Source: Armatimonadota bacterium
GTDB taxonomy: Bacteria > Armatimonadota > Chthonomonadetes > Chthonomonadales > Chthonomonadaceae
Direction: 5' to 3'
Assembly (NCBI GenBank): GCA_028871815.1
Contig: JAGWMJ010000002.1
Coordinates: 124,001 to 188,000, forward strand
Length of the DNA: 64,000 bases
Shown: positions 54,679-64,000 of the stretch, one piece after another
Numbering within the stretch: position 1 is the stretch's first letter
Layout of the letters: every line of letters starts with the position of its first letter
Translations under genes and position numbers: made by a program
Notes under the pieces: model-generated
Databases searched by the model: none
Seen by the model: only the letters and a program-made list of their open reading frames with translations
What the model was told of the DNA's origin: nothing

Positions 54679-55784
54679 CTCGCCATACCTTCTTTACTAC
54701 GGTTCGGCGACGCCATTGAGGCCGCAAGTTCCAACAGTCGCTTCTGCGGTGCAGGAAGCGCGCGCGACGTGGCGTCCGCCAGTGGAATCCACTCGGAGGA
54801 ACGCGGAGATACCGGTGCCCCCCGGCGCATTTCGGACTGCTGCAGTGCTACACCGGTCAGAGTGATGCGACAGTTCATTACGCTGTGCTTTATCGTGCCA
54901 AACGTCCTCACCGGCTGCGCTCGAATTCCCGTCAGCTCCAATACGGCGCGCGCAGCGGCATCATACGGGGATTCGCCAGCCTCCTGCACCGCCCGTGGTA
55001 ACTCCCACATTCCGCCCCACAGACCATCTTCCGGGCGGCACACCAGCAGCGCTCGGCCCGCTTCATCCTGCAAAAGCCCGGCCGCGTGCATCTGGTGCGA
55101 TGTCTTCTGCCGCCGGCCTACCGTCGGATAGTGTGCGGTCTGTCCCGCAAGATGGGCCCGGCAGTATTCGCTCACCACGCATGAGGTGCAGACCGGATTC
55201 TTCGGACGGCACACTCGCGCTCCAAATACCATAAGCGCTACATTGAACTGGCCCGGATTCTCATCCGGCACCAAGTCTGCAGCCAACCGCCAAAGCTCAC
55301 GTGCGGTCCTGGGCGTTTTGGGATCGCCATCCACAGCGTACAGACGGCACAGCGCTCTCGCCGCGTTTGCATCCACGGCGGCCGCCTGAACACCGAAAGC
55401 TTGCGAGGCTACCGCACCGGCGGTATATGCGCCGACACCGGGGAGGCGACGAAGAGCCGCGAGGTCTTCGGGAAGTCTGCCGCCATACTCCCGCCAAACC
55501 TGGCCTGCCGCCGCATGCAGCTTCCGAGCACGCGCATAGTAGCCAAGACCGGACCACACTGCGAGCACCTCTTGAACCGGCGCTGTAGCCAGGGCGTCAA
55601 CGGTGGGAAATCGCGCCATGAAGCGCTCGTGGTACGGCAGAGCAGTTTGCATCTGCGTTTGCTGAAGCATGACTTCGGATACCCAGATGGCATAAGCGCT
55701 CATCCCGGCAAACGGAGACTTGAGGCCGGATGCATCGTACCAGGCCGTCAAGCGCCTGGATATGGCAGTTGCGGATTGTATCAT
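54675..55784 (-). CDS. mutY: A/G-specific adenine DNA glycosylase
   Basis: A 369-residue base-excision repair enzyme that removes A opposite 8-oxoG. Catalytic E37 (SEVMLQQTQMQ), helix-hairpin-helix LPGVGAYTAGAVAS and D138 (AAAVDANAARALCR) are in place. The [4Fe-4S] cysteines C192-x6-C199-x2-C202-x5-C208 are all present. The C-terminal NUDIX-like 8-oxoG recognition domain follows (RALLVCRPEDGLWGGMWELP). Complete length. It is unusual in being coupled to a VWA protein gene through a 4-bp overlap. Confidence 0.95.
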   Translation of the reverse strand: MIQSATAISRRLTAWYDASGLKSPFAGMSAYAIWVSEVMLQQTQMQTALPYHERFMARFPTVDALATAPVQEVLAVWSGLGYYARARKLHAAAGQVWREYGGRLPEDLAALRRLPGVGAYTAGAVASQAFGVQAAAVDANAARALCRLYAVDGDPKTPRTARELWRLAADLVPDENPGQFNVALMVFGARVCRPKNPVCTSCVVSEYCRAHLAGQTAHYPTVGRRQKTSHQMHAAGLLQDEAGRALLVCRPEDGLWGGMWELPRAVQEAGESPYDAAARAVLELTGIRAQPVRTFGTIKHSVMNCRITLTGVALQQSEMRRGAPVSPRSSEWIPLADATSRALPAPQKRLLELAASMASPNRSKEGMAR

Positions 55785-55928
55785 GTGCCAATTGGGTGTC
55801 GAGTTGGCAGCGACACTACGATCAGGTCGTCCGGTCAGGCAAATGCAGCGTGTTAGCGGGTTTACTGTACCGGATTCTGCGCGGTCCCGGCTGATCGTGT
55901 TGACCTATAAACCACCAAACAGAAAAGC

Positions 55929-56906
55929 ATGACGGCACCTGCGTCTTCATCTGCAGTTACGGTTCTTGCCCTCCAGCAACTTCCCGACGTTGGCGACCAG
56001 ACGATCTCGCATGTGCTGCGATTGATGGCACAACGGGGCTGTGCCTGGGATGCACTATGCCGAGTGTCGCCGGACGACCTCGTGCGCGAGTGGCGCCTTA
56101 AACCGGCCGCAGCTGCCCGGCTTGTATCTGGAGGCGAAGCGTTGGATGCCGCCGCGCGGGCTTTGTGGCGGCGCTTGACGTTGGCCGGCGGCCGCATCGT
56201 GACCTGCACGGATGCCACCTGGCCCGACCGAATTGTGCGCTGTTACGAGGAGTCGCCACCGGCCGCGCTCACGCTCGTCGGTCGCGAAGCGCTCCTGGCG
56301 CCCTCCGCCGCCGACAGATTTACATTCGGTGTTGCGGTATCGAGCGCCGTGCCGGGATCCTCAACCCGGGCCGCGCAGGCTGGCACGCTGCAGCGCTGTG
56401 ATGAAGCGACTTCAGCGCTTGCGCGCCTTGGAGGCGTTGTGGTTACAGGGCACAATCGACTACCGTACCAACGGGCGGCACTGGCAGCCCAGCGTATACG
56501 AACCCCGGTGGTTTACGTGATCGATAAAGGCTTGACGAACGCCCTCGGACCCGAGCTCAACCATCCGCTCTTTCCTGCTGCCCGTATACGCGATGCCGAG
56601 TTTCAGGCGAATATAGATCTTGCGCTCTCTCCCTTCGCTCCGAGTGCGCCGTTTGTGAAGGATAACAATCGCCGGCGCGATCGAGTGCTGTTTGCCCTCT
56701 GCGACCTGGTGGTGGCGGGCGACGTAAAGGAGGACGGCAACATGCTGGAAGCATGTCTATCGGCGCACAGGCAGCGGCGCTGTGTTGTGGTGCTGGACGG
56801 CGGTGGGGGCGGGAACCGCCGCCTGCGCGAAGCAGGCTGCTTACGCCAACCCGACTCGGATCTCGGCTGGCGGCAAATTGTCAGCACGTGTGTGTCTGCA
56901 TCATGA
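55929..56906 (+). CDS. Divergent DprA/Smf-like protein
   Basis: A 325-residue protein. The N-terminus (LALQQLPDVGDQTISHVLRL) is the helical domain found before DprA Rossmann domains. DATWPDRIVRCYEESPPAAL with TLVGREALL matches the typical YPxxL...PPxxLxxxG DprA start. The Rossmann core is degenerate: instead of GSR and SGGARGID it shows FGVAVSSAVPGSSTRAA and LGGVVVTGHNRLPYQRAALA. RRDRVLFALCDLVVAGDVKE stands where RNRIIAGLS is expected. It probably binds DNA or a nucleotide rather than acting as a full RecA loader. Its stop overlaps the start of the kinase-regulator gene. Confidence 0.65.
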   Translation: MTAPASSSAVTVLALQQLPDVGDQTISHVLRLMAQRGCAWDALCRVSPDDLVREWRLKPAAAARLVSGGEALDAAARALWRRLTLAGGRIVTCTDATWPDRIVRCYEESPPAALTLVGREALLAPSAADRFTFGVAVSSAVPGSSTRAAQAGTLQRCDEATSALARLGGVVVTGHNRLPYQRAALAAQRIRTPVVYVIDKGLTNALGPELNHPLFPAARIRDAEFQANIDLALSPFAPSAPFVKDNNRRRDRVLFALCDLVVAGDVKEDGNMLEACLSAHRQRRCVVVLDGGGGGNRRLREAGCLRQPDSDLGWRQIVSTCVSAS

Positions 56907-59281
56907 GTTCCGCCGACGTCAAGCGCTCGCACGATGCCGCAACCGCTCCCGCGAAGCCCGGCCGTGCGATAGGTACGCCGCTATCCAGTTTTGAACTGGA
57001 TGCAGCGACTGCCGCAGCGATGGACGAACTCGCGGATGCCCTCGGCCTGGATCGCCTCATTGCGCTTTCGGTGGTTGACAGGGAGCGGGTTCTGCTGTGC
57101 GCCAGAGCCGTCGGCATCCCGGATTCTTCGGTGATGGGCATGCGGATCGAGCTCGCAGATGCGCCTGGCCTGGAAGCCGTTGAACGCTCTGGGGAAATCG
57201 TTACCTGGCAAGATGCGGAGAGGATTCCAGCGCCGTTGAATCGCTGGCTGAATGGCGAGAGTGTTGTGATACCACTCCGCCTGGGTGGTCGGTCGCGAAG
57301 CTTGCTGGTCGGGCAGCTGCGCCACGGTATCTCGTCTCGGTCGGAGCGGTGGCTGGCTCGCGCTCGGACGGAAGCTCGTTTCGCCACCATGCTGGTCGAA
57401 TTGGTCCGCACCGCGGCCGCATACCGGTCGGAAGTCGATCTCCGCCAGAATACGCGCGAAATTGCGGCGCACATTCTGGAAGGTCGCGGCCTACCGGACG
57501 TAGCGTCATTGGTTATAGATGCTATATGTAAACAGCTTGCCGTGTCAAACGCTGTCTTTCTGCTTCGTCGCGATGACGGGACGTTTGAACCGATCCGCAG
57601 TATTGGTGTCGTCGACGCCATCGCAGAGCCGTTGGGGCAGTTCATACTGGGTCCCACTTCCGGCTCGCGCGAAGTCGCCACGCGCCTGCCGGTGCGTGTC
57701 CACGAAGTGGCCACCGACACGCGGGTGCCGGCCGCGCTTCGTACGCAGATGGAAGCGGAGAGCCTCCAGTCGCTGTTGGCGCTGGTGATGCACGTCGGAA
57801 GTACGGTCAATGGCGTCGTTGCGGTGTTCTCTGAAACGAGCCGTGTCTTCACACCCGCCGAACTGACCACGTTTCAGATTTTTGTCGATCAGGCGACCCT
57901 GGCAGTAGAGTTCGCGCAACTGCTGAGCCGGCAGCGTGAACTGGCAACCATGGCTGAGCGCAGCCGGCTGGCGCGCGAAATGCACGACACAGTCGCGCAG
58001 TCGATAATTGGCGTCCTCACGCATTTGCAGACACTTCGGACAGACTGCACGCAATTGCATTCTGAGCCACCCGCAGCTCTGTTGACGGCGATACGAGAGG
58101 CACAGAAGGCGCTGGCAGAAACCCGTCGCGCCATCCAGGGCCTGCAGCCGCAGGAACTGGAACAGATGGACCTGACGCACGCCATTCAGGCTGCAACTCG
58201 CGGCTTTGAACAGCGGACCAGCATGCCGGTACTCATGAACGTTGATGGCCGCGAACCGGATTTGCGGCCCGAAGTTAGAAGTACGCTACTGCGCATATGC
58301 CAGGAGAGCCTGGCGAACATTCAGCAGCACGCACACGCGCGGCGTGTACGGCTTCGTCTGGAGTTCGGCGCAGCAGGAGCGCATCTTACCATCGAGGATG
58401 ATGGCGTAGGCTTCGATCCGGAAGGGAATGCGCCGGGCGAACGAGAGCCCGGCTACGGCCTGGAAGGTATGGCGGAGCGTGCCAGGCTGACAGGTGGCAC
58501 CTTGCAGGTAGAGAGCAGGCCCGGCTGGGGGACACGAGTCACCTGCGTTATCCCGTACCGCAATACCCCGTCGGTGCCGCTGCGTGGTGCGCAGCATCCT
58601 CAAACACGAAACGATGTGACGAGCCACGAAACGCACCCGGCTGGCGCAGTGGTGCGCGTCATTGTTGTCGATGACCACACCGTAACCCGTGAAGGGATCC
58701 GGTCGCTCATCGAGACGAGCGGAGATATCGAGGTAATTGCCGAGGCGGAGAACGGCCTCGAGGCTGTCGGCCTGGCCGAGGAGCTTGAACCCGACCTGGT
58801 GCTGATGGACCTTCAGATGCCGGTGATGGACGGTATCGAAGCTACACGTCGTATTCGGGCGCTGAATCCAAACCTCCCAGTCGTGATTCTAAGCACTTTT
58901 GCAGGAGAAGCCCGTATACGTGACGCGTTAGCGGCCGGCGCCATCGGCTACCTGCTGAAGGATTCCGAGCCCGAAGAGCTCGTCTCGGCGATTCGCGCCG
59001 CCGTCCAGCGCGAAGTGGTGCTGTCGCCGGAGCTCGCCAGCCGGATCGCCAGCCAATCGGAGCCGGAGATACTTCTCAATCCCCGTGAGACCGAGATTCT
59101 GTCTGAACTGGCAAAGGGCGCTCGCAACAAGGAGATCGCCGGCCACCTCTTTATCGCCCCCAGCACCGTGGAGTACCATCTGAGTAACCTGTTTGCAAAG
59201 CTCGGCGTAACCAACCGGACCGAGGCCGTACGGGTTGGCATGCAGCGCCGTCTGCTGGCCCCGCCGGAAGCGGACGGATAG
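56903..59281 (+). CDS. Fused histidine kinase - NarL/LuxR-type response regulator
   Basis: A 792-residue cytoplasmic two-component protein. Two GAF-like sensor regions (about 30-175 and 195-340) precede the HisKA_3 motif RLAREMHDTVAQSIIGVL with phospho-acceptor H361. A HATPase (LTIEDDGVGFDPEGN, GYGLEGMAERA, GWGTRVTCVIPY) follows, then a short linker. A receiver domain comes next (IVVDDHTVTREG; phospho-acceptor D636 in LVLMDLQMPVMDG), and last a LuxR helix-turn-helix (LNPRETEILSELAKGARNKE). Normally NarX-like kinases and NarL-like regulators are separate; here they are one chain. ATG 56903 overlaps the dprA-like stop (ATGA). The signal is unknown, probably soluble. Confidence 0.92.
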   Translation: MSSADVKRSHDAATAPAKPGRAIGTPLSSFELDAATAAAMDELADALGLDRLIALSVVDRERVLLCARAVGIPDSSVMGMRIELADAPGLEAVERSGEIVTWQDAERIPAPLNRWLNGESVVIPLRLGGRSRSLLVGQLRHGISSRSERWLARARTEARFATMLVELVRTAAAYRSEVDLRQNTREIAAHILEGRGLPDVASLVIDAICKQLAVSNAVFLLRRDDGTFEPIRSIGVVDAIAEPLGQFILGPTSGSREVATRLPVRVHEVATDTRVPAALRTQMEAESLQSLLALVMHVGSTVNGVVAVFSETSRVFTPAELTTFQIFVDQATLAVEFAQLLSRQRELATMAERSRLAREMHDTVAQSIIGVLTHLQTLRTDCTQLHSEPPAALLTAIREAQKALAETRRAIQGLQPQELEQMDLTHAIQAATRGFEQRTSMPVLMNVDGREPDLRPEVRSTLLRICQESLANIQQHAHARRVRLRLEFGAAGAHLTIEDDGVGFDPEGNAPGEREPGYGLEGMAERARLTGGTLQVESRPGWGTRVTCVIPYRNTPSVPLRGAQHPQTRNDVTSHETHPAGAVVRVIVVDDHTVTREGIRSLIETSGDIEVIAEAENGLEAVGLAEELEPDLVLMDLQMPVMDGIEATRRIRALNPNLPVVILSTFAGEARIRDALAAGAIGYLLKDSEPEELVSAIRAAVQREVVLSPELASRIASQSEPEILLNPRETEILSELAKGARNKEIAGHLFIAPSTVEYHLSNLFAKLGVTNRTEAVRVGMQRRLLAPPEADG

Positions 59282-62891: not shown

Positions 62892-64000
62892 CTACACAAA
62901 CTCGAGTGCGACCACGTTCGCCAGCATGATGCCCTGCGGTGTTGGAAGCAGACGCGTCCCGACCTGCCTGGCCAACCCGCGTGAAACGATGCGGTTGATT
63001 CCGTCGCGGTAGACCAGGCGTGGATCCACTCCGAACCGCTGCGTCAGGTCGGCAAGGTCCACCCCATCCACGGTCCGCAGCCCCACCATCAACGTCTCGC
63101 CCAATGCGCGTTCTGGTGGCAGCATCTCACTCTCCGAGATGATGCCGATTCCGCTCCGTGTCGCCTCCACGTAGTGGCGGACGCGCGGCTCACGCTTGAG
63201 TCGGCGCCCGCGGATGTAACCGACGGCGCCGGGGCCGAAGCCCATATACTCACCGTTGTTCCAATAGGTCATATTGTGCCGGCACCTGTGCCTACTTTTC
63301 GCGAAGTTGCTCACTTCATACTGCAGCAGACCGGCGTCGTTCAGGCGGTCTCGCGCCATTTCGTACATTTCGGCGTCACAATCCTCATCGGGCAACGCTA
63401 TAGAACCCTGGCGCGCCAGGCGCGCGAAGCGGGTATGCGGCTCTACGGTGAGCGAGTAGCACGAGACATGCTCCGGGCCAAGCTCAACGGCCGTGGTCAG
63501 CGCGGCGGACCAGTCAGAGAGTGACTGACCTGGCAGGCGGTACATCAAGTCGAGGCCCACGGTCTGGAATCCGGCCGCACGCGCGTCATTCATCGAGCGA
63601 ACCGCGTCGCTGCCGGTGTGATCCCGTCCAATGGCCCCTAGCAAGCGGTCGTCGAAGCTCTGGACGCCGATGTTGATGCGATTGAAGCCGATCGACCGGA
63701 TTTCCGCGAAACGGGCCCGGTCTGCGCTCGATGGGTTGGCCTCGAGGCTGATCTCCGCATCGTGCGCCACCTCGAATCGAGCGAGGACGGCAGCCATAAC
63801 CTGCGCCAGTTGGTATGGCGCTACGTAAGATGGTGTGCCGCCGCCGAAGAAGATCGTATCGGCTGCAACAGGTTCACTGCTCTCCATCTGCGTCGCCCCG
63901 ATATCCGAGCAGATGGCATCAATAACGCCTTCAATGAAGGAAGACCCCGGCTTTGCCACATAGACGTTGAAGTCGCAATAGGGACAGCGGCGTGAACAGA
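62892..64000 (-). CDS. hemW: HemW-like radical SAM protein, 5' end outside window
   Basis: Radical SAM protein of the HemW family (haem chaperone, formerly oxygen-independent coproporphyrinogen oxidase-like). The right edge still shows the [4Fe-4S]-SAM motif CSRRCPYCDFNVYV. Further along are FFGGGTPSYVAPYQLAQVM, SLEANPSSADRARFAEIRSI, GFNRINIGVQSFDDRLLGAI, VGLDLMYRLPGQSLSDW, and the HemW-specific YEVSNFAKSRHRCRHNMTYW. The C-terminal HTH-like HemN_C domain is complete. The start codon and only about ten residues lie beyond the window. Confidence 0.92.
   Translation of the reverse strand, partial: CSRRCPYCDFNVYVAKPGSSFIEGVIDAICSDIGATQMESSEPVAADTIFFGGGTPSYVAPYQLAQVMAAVLARFEVAHDAEISLEANPSSADRARFAEIRSIGFNRINIGVQSFDDRLLGAIGRDHTGSDAVRSMNDARAAGFQTVGLDLMYRLPGQSLSDWSAALTTAVELGPEHVSCYSLTVEPHTRFARLARQGSIALPDEDCDAEMYEMARDRLNDAGLLQYEVSNFAKSRHRCRHNMTYWNNGEYMGFGPGAVGYIRGRRLKREPRVRHYVEATRSGIGIISESEMLPPERALGETLMVGLRTVDGVDLADLTQRFGVDPRLVYRDGINRIVSRGLARQVGTRLLPTPQGIMLANVVALEFV

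Follow-up and report, generated by a model that had tools for sequence, protein, structure and literature searches.

A divergent DprA-fold protein and a one-chain kinase-response regulator encoded by overlapping genes in an Armatimonadota genome

The closest described counterparts of the two genes analysed here are the DprA/Smf proteins, represented by structures 3uqz of Streptococcus pneumoniae and 4ljk of Helicobacter pylori, and the NarX-NarL pairs of sensor kinase and response regulator. The genes lie on the forward strand of a stretch of 64,000 nucleotides (the window; positions 124,001 to 188,000 of contig JAGWMJ010000002.1, assembly GCA_028871815.1) from a member of the Chthonomonadaceae, phylum Armatimonadota, with a genome of 3.68 Mb in 22 contigs. 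The first gene, DPR (55929-56906, 325 amino acids, stop codon within the coordinates), encodes a divergent DprA-fold protein according to its open reading frame (ORF), its Pfam match and a profile match to 3uqz. The second, HKRR (56903-59281, 792 amino acids), encodes a one-chain sensor kinase and LuxR-type response regulator according to ORF, Pfam and alignment. DPR resembles DprA/Smf in its Rossmann fold family and in one arginine of the binding pocket, and differs from it in lacking GSR and SGGARGID at the motif columns, in its own invariant residues and in its shorter chain. HKRR has the kinase, receiver and helix-turn-helix domains of NarX-NarL pairs and both phosphoacceptors, but it unites them in a single chain and has a GAF sensor region.

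Two further systems bear on the comparison. Pneumococcal DprA binds the phosphorylated response regulator ComE (ComE~P) to end competence. The output domain of the Bacteroides hybrid two-component systems (HTCS) is of the AraC type. A report on the pneumococcal system (PMC7665891) treats DprA and ComE as functional partners, with a DprA-ComE~P shut-off; there a canonical DprA meets a separate ComE, while DPR and HKRR are known from their genes. The Bacteroides HTCS, presented in PMC11253607 as membrane sensors, combine sensor kinase, receiver and DNA-binding domain in one polypeptide as HKRR does. HKRR has HisKA_3 and a LuxR-type (GerE) output, and by this predicted output it is not a Bacteroides-type HTCS.

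Our analysis indicates that DPR is a DprA paralogue whose gene is probably transcribed together with that of HKRR, an ancestral two-component regulator in one chain. We give this explanation as a whole, with two intact genes, a repurposed DprA-fold protein and a one-chain regulator, a probability of roughly 0.65 on the sequence evidence. The two genes overlap by four bases, ATGA at 56903-56906, where the HKRR start codon is nested in the DPR stop, as the first-pass annotation of this DNA had described. We set the HKRR start at the ATG at 56903; the 842-residue version in the ORF listing begins farther upstream, within DPR. A promoter scan gave three sites compared with a shuffle mean of 0.6, and one candidate upstream of DPR (55757-55784, forward strand, 9/12) could serve this gene, while terminator matches stayed at chance level.

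DPR, a DprA homologue with its own invariant residues

Residues 86-291 of DPR match the Pfam family DNA_processg_A with 21.9 bits, under the gathering cut-off of 29.6 that some of its relatives exceed. The NCBIfam dprA equivalog gives 14.1 bits and its cut-off of 191.15 is not reached. We collected 39 DPR rows, namely the window and 38 fetched relatives (one more, G059, was not fetched). Alignment A1 holds 31 of them, while the tree, the motif scan and the column counts use 37, the short rows L124 and L126 being omitted. Each of the 31 A1 rows has a DNA_processg_A match with E no higher than 0.1, and the 31-row profile matches S. pneumoniae DprA 3uqz (E 1.2e-15) and also 3maj (E 5.6e-13). By profile comparison, DPR is a Rossmann-fold homologue of DprA.

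The canonical motifs are absent, as had been noticed in the first-pass annotation, and neither alignment columns nor motif scan recovered one in the DPR rows. SGxAxG[IV]D occurs in 0 of 37 DPR rows compared with all 16 chosen other DprA-like rows, and the same counts apply to the glycine of GSR at its alignment column. Plain text matching locates GSR or GTR at other sites in five of the 37. The position after the lost glycine, which corresponds to the Ser/Thr of the canonical G-S/T-R, is serine in every DPR row (S138, codon 56340-56342, forward strand). The window protein carries next to it an insertion of eight residues (about 56341-56364) which the other aligned rows do not have.

The canonical SGGARGID is replaced, by alignment and motif scan, with GHNRLPYQ (56448-56471, forward strand), in which the aspartate of GID has become a tyrosine (Y180, 37/37). 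In place of FPxRNR the alignment columns show NNRRRD (56664-56681, forward strand), which contains R250 and D251. The text motif FPxRNR is present in just 6 of the 16 other DprA-like rows and is therefore not a strict mark of DprA. Together, S138, Y180, R250 and D251 are invariant in all 37 DPR rows.

DPR is widespread in its phylum. Relatives are found in 40 of 61 relative genomes at E 1e-3 and in 16 of the 17 genomes of the family, the exception being G016, which is 64% complete. Among 291 sampled genomes of the phylum, with up to seven candidates scored per genome and listed rows of 194.5 to 414.8 bits, DPR is present in 170 at E 1e-20 and in 151 at E 1e-48 or lower; the 19 genomes with a best E weaker than 1e-48 may hold other DprA-like proteins or fragments. 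Outside the phylum, none of 240 distinct sampled genomes reaches the DPR level. These comprise 40 genomes reached via half of 80 fetched loci (top score 95 bits) and 201 genomes from the phylum of G304, the genome of a Herpetosiphon locus (up to 11 candidates each, top score 116 bits), G304 being common to both sets. Four of the five top hits in the latter phylum were inspected: each of them contains SGxAxG[IV]D, and GSR or GTR is also present in three. A tblastn search of a plasmid collection found no relative at E 1e-6. We found no paper on the DPR family in a literature search made under the name Armatimonadetes, not Armatimonadota, and judged by titles and the start of abstracts.

The 37 DPR rows are split in the tree from eight canonical and eight other DprA-like rows with branch support of 100/100; the root was placed for drawing only. 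Members of the larger families cluster together, and within its family clade the branch of the window protein is the longest (1.03). One family from outside the window's order (f6, rows L132 and L144) falls within that order, in a group with the window's family (96/85). This may reflect transfer or tree error, and it means that DPR inheritance need not be strictly vertical. Four other DprA-like proteins of the phylum (L162, L163, L164 and L166; intermediate PF02481 scores of 121.6-192.8 bits) do not form one tree group.

A canonical DprA of 413 residues is encoded elsewhere in the host genome (contig C9, 244.5 bits). The word degenerate, which had been applied to DPR in the first reading, is thus not appropriate: this is a conserved protein with invariants of its own beside a separate canonical DprA, and it belongs to a distinct family, probably one of Armatimonadota.

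HKRR, a sensor kinase and regulator in one chain

Five Pfam domains of HKRR exceed their cut-offs, all on the forward strand: GAF (residues 199-335, 57497-57907), HisKA_3 (352-419, 57956-58159), HATPase_c (460-553, 58280-58561), the receiver REC, Response_reg in Pfam (586-698, 58658-58996), and GerE, the LuxR-type helix-turn-helix (725-778, 59075-59236). The phosphoacceptor histidine H361 lies in REMHDT (codon 57983-57985) and the phosphoacceptor aspartate D636 in LVLMDLQMP (codon 58808-58810). Codons, Pfam and alignment agree on the earlier observation that both residues stand in one chain which ends in a LuxR helix-turn-helix. The best NCBIfam match is NarL, with 157.2 bits and under its cut-off. 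By these predicted features HKRR classes as a HisKA_3 kinase, a NarL/LuxR regulator and a one-chain hybrid. The comparison to a NarX/NarL-like fusion that had been drawn also stands, the chain holding the residues which His-to-Asp transfer within the protein or its dimer would use.

The region in front of the GAF match (residues about 30-190) may form a second, unrecognised GAF-like domain. In the N-terminal 340 alignment columns, cysteine reaches at least 7 of 13 rows only at column 49 (7/13, the window not among them) and no histidine column does so; with this single partial cysteine column and no such histidine column, the GAF region looks an unlikely sensor of heme or Fe-S clusters.

H361 is kept in 12 of 13 rows and D636 in 12 of 12. 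The row without the histidine, from G008 (locus L120, 5658-7982), has a glutamine at H361, a degraded H-box and a glutamate in the acidic pair of the receiver, while D636 and the helix-turn-helix are retained. From these residues it is likely a pseudokinase.

The same architecture was searched for among relatives. HKRR is a single open frame in all 13 family rows (the window and 12 relatives), and 12 of these show all parts, the copy of G009 ending at the contig end before REC. In six genomes we counted exactly one frame with HisKA_3 and GerE per genome (871, 802, 780, 809, 830 and 607 amino acids), the frame of 607 amino acids being that of an order-level relative, G017. As an internal control, contig C6 of the window genome also encodes an ordinary HisKA_3 kinase and a LuxR regulator as separate proteins, with some 1 kb between their genes.

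Outside the phylum, Aquabacterium parvum (L034, 752 amino acids) has the complete order GAF-HisKA_3-HATPase-REC-GerE in one frame, which shows that the architecture is not special to the window's family. The Aquabacterium genome G292 reaches only DprA level in the DPR search (E 9.2e-13). An Akkermansiaceae locus (L070) joins kinase and receiver in one ORF without the helix-turn-helix. One-chain kinase-regulators, the domain order of HKRR included, are an already known kind, and hybrid kinases are discussed, with work on two-component gene fusions cited, in PMC12471899. On the aligned frames, HKRR is an ancestral fusion of this known kind.

Gene order and alternative readings

Eleven of the 16 family genomes that bear DPR have HKRR directly behind it in the same orientation (the window, G001, G002, G004, G006, G008, G009, G010, G011, G013 and G014). 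In G005 and G007 the two genes are on different contigs, and HKRR was not found at E 1e-60, with 16 candidates scored per genome, in G003, G012 and G015, which belong to one genus. In 14 of the 16 genomes the threonine synthase gene thrC precedes DPR at a distance of one or two genes. Some of the thrC copies are fragmentary, the one in G009 is about 0.5 kb off, and at the G014 locus the contig edge makes its position unreadable. The copy of G010 scores 291.3 bits where the equivalog cut-off is 167.1; the remaining copies were named by clustering. Other gene clusters of these regions recur less often.

The window locus has no thrC (55785-55928), and the best thrC-like gene elsewhere in the host is 39% identical. 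Where thrC stands in relatives, the divergent MutY-like gene abuts DPR. In G010 the row reads MutY-like gene, thrC, DPR and HKRR, which suggests that thrC was lost from the window locus.

At the loci fetched from other families of the phylum, DPR is in no case adjoined by HKRR. The seven upstream neighbours of DPR scanned in such families comprise a GHMP kinase, a sulfatase, an ABC transporter, a peptidase, a nucleoside phosphorylase, ParB and one protein without a Pfam family. The occurrence of DPR without an adjoining HKRR in other families and genomes indicates that DPR can do without HKRR. The gene row thrC-DPR-HKRR characterises a single family, and from the gene orders compared the adjacency of DPR and HKRR would best be read as part of this family-level row. 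The unlinked HKRR of G005 (L151, 4573-7041) overlaps by four bases the start of its next gene, which clusters with the window ORF 62892-63998, HemW by NCBIfam. Loci of the relatives also contain pilin-like genes, a typical feature of the phylum. For Chthonomonas calidirosea, PMC4959169 describes a disorganised genome with dispersed operons.

The best surviving alternative, though an unlikely one, is that DPR is a dedicated partner of HKRR which binds the phosphorylated receiver and shuts it off, or which feeds a nucleic-acid signal to it. The same-strand linkage and the ATGA overlap in the window are in agreement with such a role, and the pneumococcal interaction (PMC7665891) is a precedent that makes contact between DPR and HKRR thinkable, adjacency being the support for it here. 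HKRR is also confined to family genomes that bear DPR (13/13), which says little since 16 of 17 bear it. On the other hand, DPR occurs without HKRR in three genomes and unlinked to it in two, and thrC accompanies DPR at least as regularly.

The distance correlations were compared as well. Across nine genomes the correlation of DPR with HKRR was 0.70, compared with 0.43 for DPR with thrC and 0.48 for HKRR with thrC, and across 11 genomes it was 0.66, reached by none of 2000 shuffles. With one genome per genus (seven genomes) it fell to 0.15, a value that 1378 of 5040 permutations attained, indicating that the earlier signal came from pairs of the same genus. Co-evolution of DPR and HKRR is unsupported at this depth, the controlled test being negative. 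The suggestion in the first-pass annotation that DPR is a sensor or target of HKRR is consequently left with adjacency as its evidence, against the constancy of thrC, the five genomes with HKRR missing or unlinked and this null result.

A more specific form of this idea is drawn by analogy with the DprA-ComE~P contact of pneumococcus, of which it would be a genetically linked version. It is conceivable, but quite improbable, that DPR has given up the handling of incoming DNA and become a dedicated signalling protein, one that responds to a nucleic-acid or nucleotide ligand and either retains or frees the phosphorylated receiver of the HKRR encoded beside it.

A second alternative, also improbable, is that DPR is another working DprA that still binds single-stranded DNA and helps RecA. 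The roles of the DprA pocket residues were taken from PMC4489622 and PMC4066776 and mapped from H. pylori and S. pneumoniae to DPR by HMMER alignments and counted chain positions. The arginine of RNR (H. pylori R143, S. pneumoniae R208) is kept as R250 in 37 of 37 rows, the position of S. pneumoniae K144 is arginine or lysine in 32 of 37, NNRRRD adds further arginines, and the profile match to 3uqz agrees with this reading.

The opposing evidence comes from the same pocket. The GSR glycine is gone and the GID aspartate is tyrosine in every row, and the arginine which is crucial in both H. pylori (R52) and S. pneumoniae (R115) is present in only 14 of 37, with asparagine in 19; in the window protein this arginine is uncertain because of the eight-residue insertion there. 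The asparagine of RNR is aspartate in all 37 rows, although 2 of the 16 other DprA-like rows also have aspartate here (asparagine in 14). The position of S. pneumoniae K202 is lysine in the window protein and glycine in 23 of 37 rows, and the host's canonical DprA also has no lysine there. This canonical DprA coexists with DPR. The proposed check for a single-stranded DNA pocket was thus answered in part: by alignment, the R143/R208 arginine appears retained, whereas the R52/R115 arginine in most rows and the GSR glycine in all appear lost.

We consider it very unlikely that DPR is an antitoxin-like or defence protein comparable to ShosA and PsyrA, which are DprA-like antitoxins and, as DPR, non-canonical relatives of DprA. 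The PADLOC models give 26.3 bits for PsyrA (E 9e-7) and 12 bits for ShosA, and the ShosA structure 9vzo is among the structure matches of the DPR profile. The canonical DprA of the host scores far higher on both models (206.9 for ShosA and 108.2 for PsyrA), so that the DPR hits may only reflect DprA homology. Of eight upstream neighbours scanned, seven have a Pfam family and none resembles a toxin partner; one of them, an ABC transporter, also matches a model whose description mentions AbiEii. With weak scores and no toxin partner among these eight, an antitoxin identity was rejected.

The possibility that a sequencing or assembly error, such as a hidden deletion, joined two genes into HKRR can be dismissed as extremely improbable: the two-gene form is commoner elsewhere (kinase and receiver share one ORF in 2 of the 39 loci with a kinase match among the 80 fetched, which were picked by similarity to P0002 and are not a census) and three more matches at E 1e-60 (G001, G040 and G055) cross stop codons, but the relatives carry the same single frame in all 13 family rows and in G017, and the same domain order is found in one Aquabacterium frame.

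Proposed mechanism and significance

The explanation that we prefer, a repurposed DprA paralogue encoded ahead of a one-chain regulator, leads to the following model. DPR would keep the Rossmann fold of DprA with a rebuilt binding pocket. It would not act as a recombination mediator, a role open to the canonical DprA encoded on another contig, and would bind a different nucleic acid or nucleotide-like ligand. The two genes would probably be co-transcribed. The GAF region of HKRR would sense a cytoplasmic signal. Judging from the conserved residues, the HKRR dimer would then autophosphorylate on H361, the phosphoryl group would pass to D636 of the same chain or of the dimer partner, and the LuxR helix-turn-helix would bind its DNA targets. 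Work on the Bacteroides hybrids (PMC11253607) points out that a kinase tethered to a DNA-binding domain needs a means to stop unstimulated DNA binding, and the same problem arises in HKRR.

Several results weigh against this explanation. Structure prediction from the single DPR sequence had a pLDDT of 39.8 and gave no usable model. The invariant R250 and the extra arginines adjoining it would still allow DPR to bind DNA, and a functional pair would be compatible with the linkage found in 11 of 16 genomes. The glutamine at the H361 position in G008 means that phosphotransfer inside the chain is not universal. Finally, the top 19-residue hydropathy of HKRR is 1.89 (residues 291-309), where 1.6 is often taken as a threshold for membrane segments; since this stretch falls inside the GAF match, we read HKRR as probably soluble.

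The one-chain HisKA_3-LuxR regulator offers a system for studying intramolecular phosphotransfer, for which the relative without the kinase histidine in G008 is a natural comparison. Roughly every second genome sampled from the phylum carries DPR, which has an invariant pocket of its own, and the genome of the window encodes an ordinary DprA in addition. This suggests that in these bacteria the DprA fold has been put to a second use.

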